Shown here: positions 56,732 to 59,263 of the stretch, piece after piece
How positions within the stretch are numbered: position 1 is the first letter of the stretch
How the letters are laid out: the number at the start of each line of letters is the position of its first letter
Assembly: GCA_949948745.1 (NCBI GenBank)
Contig: CATLHA010000006.1
Coordinates: 1-64,000, forward strand
Origin: an uncultured Caryophanales bacterium
GTDB taxonomy: Bacteria > Bacillota_I > Bacilli_A > RF39 > UBA660
Reading direction: 5' to 3'
DNA: 64,000 bases
Position numbers and translations under genes: made by a program
Notes under the pieces: model-generated
Database searches by the model: none
What the model saw: only the letters and a program-made list of their open reading frames with translations
What the model was told of the DNA's origin: nothing

Positions 56732-57298
56732 ATGAGCGATGTAATGGATGAATTAATTGATATTTTAAATGAAGATGGTACTAGTACTGGAAAATCTGCA
56801 ACTAAAGCAGAGATTTATCAAAATGGGTATTGGCATAAGTCTGTTCATATTTGGATTATTAACGATAATCAAGAGTTATTGGTTCAAAAGAGAAATCCAT
56901 ATAAGAAAACTTTTGCGAATTTGTGGGCCATTTCTTCGGCTGGTCATGTGTTAACTGGCGAGTCTAGTTTGGAAGCTGGTATCCGTGAATTGAAAGAGGA
57001 ATTAAATGTTGATGCGACCGAGGGAGATTTAGAGTATTTATTTTCCATTCGTAGAGAACAACCATATAAGGACCATTTCTTACGTGTAATAGATGATGTC
57101 TATCTTTTACATTGTAATTTAGATGTTGACCATACAAAATTGCAAGTGGAAGAATTAACGGATATTAAATATGTCTATTATCAATATTTAGAGACTATTT
57201 TTAAGAGTGGGGATTCTAGTTATGTTCCATATACAGAAGAACATGAAAAACTATTTAAATTATTACAAGAACGTTATGACCCAATTGATATTATATAG
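56732..57298 (+). CDS. NUDIX hydrolase of the isopentenyl-diphosphate isomerase-like type
   Basis: A 188-residue NUDIX protein. The NUDIX box GHVLTGESSLEAGIRELKEE (71-90) is complete, with the RELKEE metal-binding residues. The opening MDELIDILNEDG and the VHIWIINDNQELLVQKR strand resemble the NUDIX branch that includes type 1 isopentenyl-diphosphate isomerase. The gene directly precedes the large RNA. In other bacteria OLE RNA lies among isoprenoid genes, so an isoprenoid role is possible but not shown. Confidence 0.85.
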   Translation: MSDVMDELIDILNEDGTSTGKSATKAEIYQNGYWHKSVHIWIINDNQELLVQKRNPYKKTFANLWAISSAGHVLTGESSLEAGIRELKEELNVDATEGDLEYLFSIRREQPYKDHFLRVIDDVYLLHCNLDVDHTKLQVEELTDIKYVYYQYLETIFKSGDSSYVPYTEEHEKLFKLLQERYDPIDII

Positions 57299-57304
57299 AT
57301 TATA

Positions 57305-57334
57305 AATCATCCTTATTTGGGTGATTTTTCTTTT
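57305..57334 (+). terminator. Terminator after the NUDIX gene
   Basis: AATCATCC / GGGTGATT 8-bp stem (one G-T) with a T-rich tail. It separates the NUDIX gene from the RNA promoter. Confidence 0.7.
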
Positions 57335-57346
57335 AAAATTCTAATA

Positions 57347-57375
57347 TTGAAAAACAATTATGAATATATTATAAT
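57347..57375 (+). promoter_or_regulatory. Promoter of the large structured RNA
   Basis: TTGAAA (57347-57352), a 17-base spacer and TATAAT (57370-57375) predict a start near 57382, exactly where the RNA's end-closing stem begins. Confidence 0.78.
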
Positions 57376-57382
57376 GATAAAT

Positions 57383-57957
57383 AAGAAGTGGTGCATTATT
57401 CTAGTCGATTGCAATTATTATGAGGACGAGGGTAAAATATCGTTAAAGAGCATATCTGTGAAACTTTTGGTGCTTGCTTAGTACGCCCAGTATTGGGTGG
57501 GTGCTGGAAGGGAAGAATCTATGGGCGCCCATAATGGCATATGGACCCGACCCATAAATTCGTGGAGACCTATACTTGTGGAATCGAAAAGATTTTACGA
57601 CTTAGGCTAGAACCTATTTTGTGGCGAATAGCTATGAATAGCGTAGCTTGACTTGAGTGATTGTTGGGGATAGAGACAGCTTATCCTTAGGTGTACATCT
57701 AAAGATAAGTATTGCTACTTGAAACATCAGTTGCAAAAAAGTATAGTAATATTTATGGTCGTTCGAGGAAAACTCCTAGGGTGTAATCGATATAGGATTG
57801 CAGTGTATACTAAGTGGCAATCAAGTCATAGAATTGGTGACAATCTATTGCTTTCTTTCAAGGGGAACCGCTTACTGGTAACGGTAAGTAGGAAGTAGGG
57901 AAATCCAACTTGACCTAAGATACAAAGTTTACTATATTGATGACCATTTCTTTTTTT
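57383..57957 (+). ncRNA. ole: OLE RNA (ornate, large, extremophilic RNA)
   Basis: About 575 bases of G+C-enriched sequence with no sensible reading frame. Its 5' end AAGAAGTGGT (57383-57392) pairs with ACCATTTCTT (57943-57952), closing the molecule before a T7 run. Internal hairpins are visible at 57484-57499, 57680-57709 (CTTATC/GATAAG plus TTAGGT/ATCTAA), 57796-57822 (GATTGC/GCAATC) and 57871-57888. The downstream gene encodes what I recognise as OapA, the membrane protein partner of OLE RNA. Assignment to OLE therefore rests on size, structure and this neighbour, not on alignment. OLE forms a membrane-bound ribonucleoprotein that helps tolerate alcohol, cold and metal stress in Bacillus halodurans. 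A different giant RNA (ROOL, GOLLD) is the main alternative. Confidence 0.78.
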
Positions 57958-57972
57958 ATTGAGGTTTTGTTT

Positions 57973-58560
57973 ATGAAAATAAAAAAATATAAAGAAAAAT
58001 ATTCTAAAAAGGCAAAGAAGAGAAAAAGTTTTCCAGAAAAATTAAATGATTATTCATGGATTATTACAGTTACTATTTTGGCATTCTTTATTTCATTGTT
58101 GTTTTCCTTTGTATCGGAGTTAACAATTCCTAATGCAAGCAGTATTGTAGCTACATTCATTATTATTTTATTTATAGGAATTGGTATTATTTTTGATATG
58201 ATTGGAATTAGTGTTACAGTTGCTGATATAAAAACGTTTAACTCTATGGCAACGAAAAGAATAAAAGGTGCTAGTTTAGCAGTAAAACTAATTCATAATG
58301 CATCTAGAACTTCTAGTTTTTGTAATGATGTTATAGGAGATATTTGTGGAATTATTAGTGGTTCTGCTGGAGTTGCTTTGGCTAATATTTTATCAAATGC
58401 ATTTCACCTTAATCTGTTTATTACAACCTTATTCATTACTGCTATAATCGCAGCTTTTACAATTGGTGGAAAGGCTTTAGGAAAGACTACTGCGATGAAT
58501 CGAAGCACTTATATCTTGTATCAATTTTGTAAAGTTTTGTCATTTTTTTACAAAAAATAA
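57973..58560 (+). CDS. oapA: OLE-associated membrane protein OapA
   Basis: A 195-residue protein with a very basic N-terminus (MKIKKYKEKYSKKAKKRK) and four likely membrane segments (about 32-52, 58-80, 116-138, 143-165). Between the second and third is a conserved-looking block with GIIFDMIGISVTVADIK, then RIKGA, and CNDVIGDICGIISGSAG, which contains a DxxxD motif (DVIGD) as I recall for OapA. OapA binds OLE RNA and anchors it to the membrane. ATG 57973 is set by GAGG eight bases upstream; ATG 57937 would fall inside the RNA. Length fits the known family. Confidence 0.8.
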   Translation: MKIKKYKEKYSKKAKKRKSFPEKLNDYSWIITVTILAFFISLLFSFVSELTIPNASSIVATFIIILFIGIGIIFDMIGISVTVADIKTFNSMATKRIKGASLAVKLIHNASRTSSFCNDVIGDICGIISGSAGVALANILSNAFHLNLFITTLFITAIIAAFTIGGKALGKTTAMNRSTYILYQFCKVLSFFYKK

Positions 58561-58690: not shown

Positions 58691-59263
58691 ATGGGTAAAA
58701 ATAAAAAAATAGCAGTATTTCTTGTGATTATTGGTATTGTTCTTCTTGTTGCTGGTGGTACATATACTATAGTTACCAAGATGAATAAAGAGAAAAAAGA
58801 AATAGAAGATGCACAAAATAATGTTGTGGATAAATATAAAAAATTTAAAGAAGAGGCAGATAAGTTTTTGGATGCTAGAAAAGAATATCAGAATATTGTA
58901 GTTGAAGATTTATTTGTAGAATCTGTAGAAGAAGATTATGAAGAATGGATGAAATCATTTGATAAATATCAAAAAGTAGTAGATGCTGTAATAGAAAAAG
59001 CAAAGGATTTAAGTAAACTTTGTATTGATAAGACTTATCCTGATAAAGCTGTGATGACTAATTGTCAATCTTATATGATTAATTATGAGACAGTTATGAA
59101 TTATTTTGTAAAAGACGTGGAAGAATTTAATGAATTTATGAATGAATATTATGAAGACTATAAAGGAAATAAGACTCTTTATCCACAATATAGATTAGAT
59201 GAAAATGTGTATCATTATGTAGATATTAATGATGATGGCGAATATATTGGAAAAGATAAATAG
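58691..59263 (+). CDS. Membrane-anchored hypothetical protein
   Basis: A 190-residue protein with a basic head (GKNKK), one membrane segment (about 7-27) and a highly charged helical external domain with many Glu/Asp/Lys and two Cys. ATG 58691 follows AGGAGA. It is followed 11 bases later by the phosphodiester glycosidase-like gene. The function is not recognised. Confidence 0.65.
   Translation: MGKNKKIAVFLVIIGIVLLVAGGTYTIVTKMNKEKKEIEDAQNNVVDKYKKFKEEADKFLDARKEYQNIVVEDLFVESVEEDYEEWMKSFDKYQKVVDAVIEKAKDLSKLCIDKTYPDKAVMTNCQSYMINYETVMNYFVKDVEEFNEFMNEYYEDYKGNKTLYPQYRLDENVYHYVDINDDGEYIGKDK

Follow-up and report, generated by a model that had tools for sequence, protein, structure and literature searches.

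OLE is a large structured bacterial RNA, among the largest whose biochemical function is still unsolved. The locus described here raises the question of whether a structured RNA and the small membrane protein encoded behind it, at positions 57347-58560 of a 64-kb stretch of DNA from an uncultured gut bacterium (the window), are OLE and its partner OapA, and what kind of complex the two could form in this lineage. The original prediction proposed this identity and presented the pair as novel because it lies in a probable non-extremophile. The claim of novelty has to be given up. OLE-OapA was reported in 2024 from 2,822 genomes of Bacillota, the gut MAG clades RF39 and TANB77 among them (PMC11332333), and since OLE in gut anaerobes has thus been published, the window locus is not novel in kind.

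Identity of the RNA and its protein partner

A genuine OLE RNA lies beside oapA in the window. The Rfam search (cmscan) matched the complete OLE model on the forward strand with an E-value of 1.1e-112, against a gathering score of 50 bits for this family (Table 1), and OLE was the only family to reach gathering level anywhere in the 64 kb. No gathering-level match to ROOL or GOLLD, the other large ornate RNAs named in the original prediction, was returned from the window. Because OLE alone reaches its gathering score, and does so over the full model at 395.5 bits, we rejected the alternative that a ROOL or GOLLD RNA lies here beside an unrelated membrane protein, and its probability is practically nil. 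The genome of 1.8 Mb holds one copy of OLE, the one in the window. The minimum free energy of the ole strand is -172.7 kcal/mol, which beats all of 100 shuffled sequences (z = -4.6), and the predicted length of about 575 nucleotides, counted from a putative start near 57382, agrees with the 592 bases that the Rfam match covers with its flanks.

Table 1. Positions of features in and around the ole-oapA locus, numbered within the window.
Feature	Position	Strand	Basis or remark
Upstream Nudix hydrolase gene (flank, outside the ribonucleoprotein)	56732-57298	+	best NCBIfam match IPP isomerase, below cut-off
Terminator-like hairpin, 3' of the Nudix gene	57304-57327	+	consensus scan only
Candidate ole promoter, TTGAAA-17-TATAAT; predicted transcript start near 57382	57347-57375	+	fits 5' end of Rfam match
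OLE RNA gene (ole), RF01071 positions 1-616 of 616	57372-57963	+	395.5 bits; covariation
L4 UAAAA, adenines of the putative intermolecular A-A bridge B1 of the OLE dimer	57433-57437	+	conserved; role from PMC12286853
J4a/5 k-turn strand, OapC site in Halalkalibacterium halodurans	57456-57464	+	7 of 9 columns invariant in 38 RNAs; PMC9723947, PMC12286853
L6 region AUAAUGGCAUAU with a nearly invariant core; CCUCC anti-Shine-Dalgarno mimic absent from P6	57531-57542	+	
J6/7 k-turn strand GGAGAC	57564-57569	+	invariant in 38 of 38 RNAs
P9.3 hairpin with loop UGUACA (57692-57697), putative palindromic kissing loop of the RNA dimer	57677-57712	+	role from PMC12286853
P13 tip GGUAAC, region of the OapB site in H. 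halodurans	57877-57882	+	36-38 of 38 RNAs share each base
Probable oapA ribosome-binding site GAGG	57961-57964	+	sequence
oapA, 195 aa, basic N-terminus, predicted CNNM-like helical membrane protein	57973-58560	+	
DVIGD, OapA-specific DxxxD motif (residues 119-123)	58327-58341	+	alignment
190-aa orf downstream, bounding the site on its other side in OLE-less relatives	58691-59263	+	

The candidate promoter of ole is of the sigma-70 type and has 11 of the 12 consensus bases. Together with the terminator-like hairpin upstream, it makes ole-oapA look like a transcription unit of its own, although this is an argument from consensus. Promoter-like sites in the region are not clearly more numerous than chance would give, and this one is good only in its position and its score. 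The neighbouring Nudix hydrolase has type-1 IPP isomerases as its top models, all of them below the cut-off, and the gene stays at the site in several members of the genus, with or without OLE.

The start of oapA (an ATG at 57973), the end of its stop codon (58560) and its length of 195 residues are those originally given. That the protein is OapA is supported by its tandem arrangement with ole, its DxxxD motif, its basic N-terminus, its predicted CNNM-like fold and its co-occurrence with OLE. The DxxxD motif is the criterion that separates OapA from CNNM proteins, whose domains lack it, and among 16 aligned OapA relatives D119 is invariant and D123 nearly so (at least 90%). The N-terminal tail is basic in nearly all members. 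The few with a short tail include those of G028, which also has a short OLE, and of G021; a link between tail length and the form of OLE was dropped, as the short-tailed members are too few.

In a Pfam search OapA matched CNNM weakly and stayed under the cut-off (E 0.002), which fits the distant relationship of OapA and CNNM proteins described in PMC11332333. NCBIfam returned nothing useful for it, and a search of PDB sequences with an OapA profile gave no chain up to E = 1. The AlphaFold2 model, which was built on the alignment of 16 sequences, has a pLDDT of 86, with the N-terminal tail at about 49-66. When this model was compared to the PDB with Foldseek, the best matches were to the CNNM protein MtCorB (7m1t, 7m1u), and the transmembrane domain of CorC (7cff) came at rank 8; the matches to CNNM/CorB and CorC have a Foldseek probability of 0.95-1.00, yet weak E-values of 0.04 to 1.2. 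An OapA is expected to be of about 21 kDa, and the 195 residues and the multi-helix, CNNM-like model agree with this, with the same weakness of the Foldseek E-values.

RNA structure and helper proteins

In 38 RNAs of the lineage, 88.2% of the cells at pairs derived from Rfam hold standard pairs, the covariation score is 0.425, and compensatory change with both sides altered is found in 103 of the 154 pairs. Controls in which the pairs were slid by 1-3 columns were 38-46% paired, with 40-60 pairs changed and a covariation of at most 0.12. Of 85 RNAs, 80 have an L9.3 loop with a palindrome four or more bases long, built on the cores GUAC, GGCC, AGCU and GCGC (UGUACA in the window), and P9.3 is deleted in two of the five exceptions. 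Given the compensatory pairs and the loop palindrome that is kept, comparison of these RNAs indicates that the OLE structure is under selection. OLE has been described as an RNA dimer in which the self-complementary kissing loop L9.3 switches among the palindromes GGCC, GAUC and AGCU, and covariation of this palindrome served as evidence for the dimer (PMC12286853). The short OLE RNAs of G028 and G034 (L020 and L019), of about 495 nucleotides, lack P9.3 and with it the kissing loop, and the OapA of G028 is without the long basic tail.

OapB (YbzG, a KOW protein) and OapC (YbxF, of the L7Ae family) are helper proteins that are needed in the model species Halalkalibacterium halodurans. The original prediction had pointed to their genes as something to look for, and neither is detectable in the window's genome. 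The Pfam family of OapC (L7Ae, PF01248) has no match in any of 35 genomes from the window's family and has matches in 21 of 23 from other families. Pfam KOW matches two frames in the window's genome, of 122 and 179 aa, which are the sizes of L24 and NusG, in a search that had no OapB positive control. Since the frames matched are mostly of L24 or NusG size and an OapB control is lacking, Pfam KOW was rejected as a detector of OapB, and OapB could be present in a form that it misses. The ribosomal-protein operon of the window's genome, the neighbourhood that we take to be that of oapB, has infA straight after adk, with no KOW gene in between; map is likewise absent at this point (G000:C1:26995-28152; L199). 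The published location of oapB is in an operon of translation genes (PMC9723947). The gene for bS21 is present in the window's genome. In H. halodurans the binding of bS21 has been attributed to a CCUCC anti-Shine-Dalgarno mimic (PMC12054373), and none of the 85 RNAs carries this mimic.

The sites at which the two helper proteins dock on the RNA are kept. The UGAA of the k-turn in J4a/5, leaving its neighbours aside, is invariant in 38 of 38 RNAs, and the other strand of the k-turn and the P13 tip are listed in Table 1. A lineage in which OapB and OapC are not recognisable, yet in which their docking sites are near-invariant, is a modest addition to the published observation that both proteins are largely missing in gut clades, where variant RNAs often lose the OapB site (PMC11332333). 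The k-turn has been seen in OLE free of protein (PMC12286853), which makes it plausible that it is kept here for a role of the RNA only.

Inheritance and apparent loss of the locus

Within the window's family, OLE was found in 20 of 35 genomes and OapA also in 20, with both in 19. The two mismatches are best read as assembly gaps because both loci sit at contig ends: in G007, which has OapA and no OLE, oapA starts at the first base of a contig, and in G034, which has OLE and no OapA, OLE ends 118 bases from the contig end. Judged by gene content, OLE and OapA are tightly co-inherited across the family. Named genomes, many of them from rabbit and ruminant gut metagenomes, have OLE just upstream in 75 of 80 oapA loci; four of the remaining five have OLE elsewhere in the genome (361-415 bits) and one is at a contig end. 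OLE was found at all nine of the newly fetched oapA loci that were scanned. Strong OapA matches in 392 evenly sampled genomes of the phylum were restricted to the window's family, where 14 of 19 sampled genomes had one. In G019 ole and oapA are on different contigs, with OLE upstream of a recG-like gene (L012). Besides an intact ole-oapA, G014 has a further, broken copy of the C-terminal part of OapA, interrupted by a stop (G014:C17:27326-27466; L122).

The locus is cleanly absent from the syntenic site, between the same flanks, in G001, G004, G006 and G012. The gap between the Nudix gene and the 190-aa orf is 94 bases in G004 and 354 bases in G006, and an unrelated 539-aa frame lies there in G001 and G012. 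This frame is of unknown function (L144:3149-4768 and L145:4662-6281). Searches of the empty sites with nhmmer, blastn and cmscan gave no convincing remnants of OLE or oapA. In four relatives (L144, L145, L147 and L148), T-box leaders that stay below threshold (66-72 bits against a cut-off of 93) occur a few kb from the empty site. Mapped on an rpoB tree, the presence of OLE switches at least three to four times among the sampled rows, and these changes and the shared site fit repeated joint loss of ole-oapA, with horizontal transfer as a possible alternative.

A phylum-wide anticorrelation of OLE and MpfA has led to the proposal that MpfA is a replacement for OLE (PMC11332333). Among the 35 genomes of the family, MpfA-type CNNM proteins exceed the cut-off in G031 alone, a genome without OLE. 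TerC/MeeY was rejected as a replacement in the OLE-less relatives after none of the 58 genomes searched gave a match over the cut-off. For these reasons the OLE complex appears to have been lost in this family without the proposed replacement by MpfA. The genomes are drafts, in which single absences are weak; the pattern is stronger over the eight that are at least 90% complete (G001, G006, G012, G016, G017, G022, G023 and G030).

Two other explanations of the locus have to be weighed against this background. OLE might mainly be a cis-acting leader that controls translation of oapA in the manner of a riboswitch, and not a free RNA partner. Its place directly upstream in 75 of the 80 loci would suit this, as would the window, where ole ends about 10 bases before the start of oapA and a scan of the sequence found no terminator between them. 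However, G019 and the four named genomes retain both genes although the two have come apart, and this favours partners acting in trans over a leader. The palindromic L9.3 loop implies that one OLE RNA pairs with another, and in H. halodurans OLE is stable, abundant and associated with OapA at the membrane (PMC12265935, PMC9723947). We consider a leader very improbable. The system might instead be a decaying remnant that is disappearing after the loss of the essential OapB and OapC, as the failure to detect these proteins, the clean absence of the whole locus in the four relatives named above and the short forms in G028 and G034 could suggest. Against this, the ole of the window is full length, with a candidate promoter, an invariant core and strong covariation; its oapA is an intact frame with motifs conserved in relatives; and no half-decayed copies are seen at the site in OLE-less relatives. 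Decay of this kind seems unlikely.

A probable two-part complex and its relation to known systems

The explanation that we prefer, and consider quite probable, is a two-part OLE ribonucleoprotein in which an RNA dimer docked on OapA would regulate a CNNM-like cation path under stress, without OapB and OapC. The sequences compared here show the identity of the RNA, its selected structure and palindromic loop, the OapA partner, their co-inheritance and the lack of detectable OapB and OapC. Dimerisation, docking at the membrane, ion transport and a role in stress are inferred from the literature, the last three from work on H. halodurans (PMC12265935, PMC9723947, PMC12054373). OLE would be transcribed from its own promoter and fold into the standard ornate structure, and two of these RNAs would pair through the L4 adenines and the palindromic L9.3 loop. 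The RNA would dock on the CNNM-like membrane protein OapA, probably a transporter or exporter of divalent cations (Mg2+), with the basic tail of OapA as a likely contact. OLE may then be the regulatory part that OapA lacks, where MpfA and CorC carry CBS and CorC domains instead, and it would couple stress and Mg2+ state to ion flux. As OapB and OapC were not detected, the k-turn and the P13 tip would have to be held in this lineage by contacts between RNAs or by other proteins.

A more specific version is tentative, and we give it somewhat less than an even chance. Here the complex would be a minimal one of RNA and OapA, its k-turn and P13 tip would serve the RNA architecture or unknown partners, and it could be lost without MpfA or TerC/MeeY, with the idea of MpfA as a replacement failing in this family. 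The lineage would separate the core of the OLE machine from its accessories, so that reconstitution from two components becomes possible. The window locus can be seen as a useful natural reduction of the complex, and close relatives that carry the locus at one syntenic site, or lack it there, offer a natural comparison for studying the function of the complex and any replacement.

Compared with the OLE ribonucleoprotein of H. halodurans (OLE, OapA, OapB, OapC and bS21), the window has in common a full-length OLE followed by oapA, the DxxxD motif, both k-turn strands, the L4 adenines, the L9.3 palindrome, the P13 tip and the gene for bS21. It differs in having no OapC-family protein, no recognisable OapB and no CCUCC in P6, and in being an apparently stand-alone locus beside a Nudix gene. 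With the MpfA/CorC/CorB (CNNM) Mg2+ transporters, OapA shares a predicted transmembrane fold, as its model matches 7m1t, 7m1u and 7cff, but unlike them it is without a CBS or CorC domain, carries DxxxD and falls below the cut-off for Pfam CNNM. Close parallels are OLE variants 1 (TANB77) and 2 (RF39) of PMC11332333, which are likewise from uncultured gut lineages with OLE and OapA, with OapB and OapC missing and P7 shortened. The 395.5 bits of the window with the Rfam model are near the full-length class of that paper, whose cut-off of 390 uses another model. In the family, only the RNAs of G028 and G034 resemble the short variants; the RNA of the window, unlike variants 1 and 2, keeps P8, P9.3 and the P13 tip.
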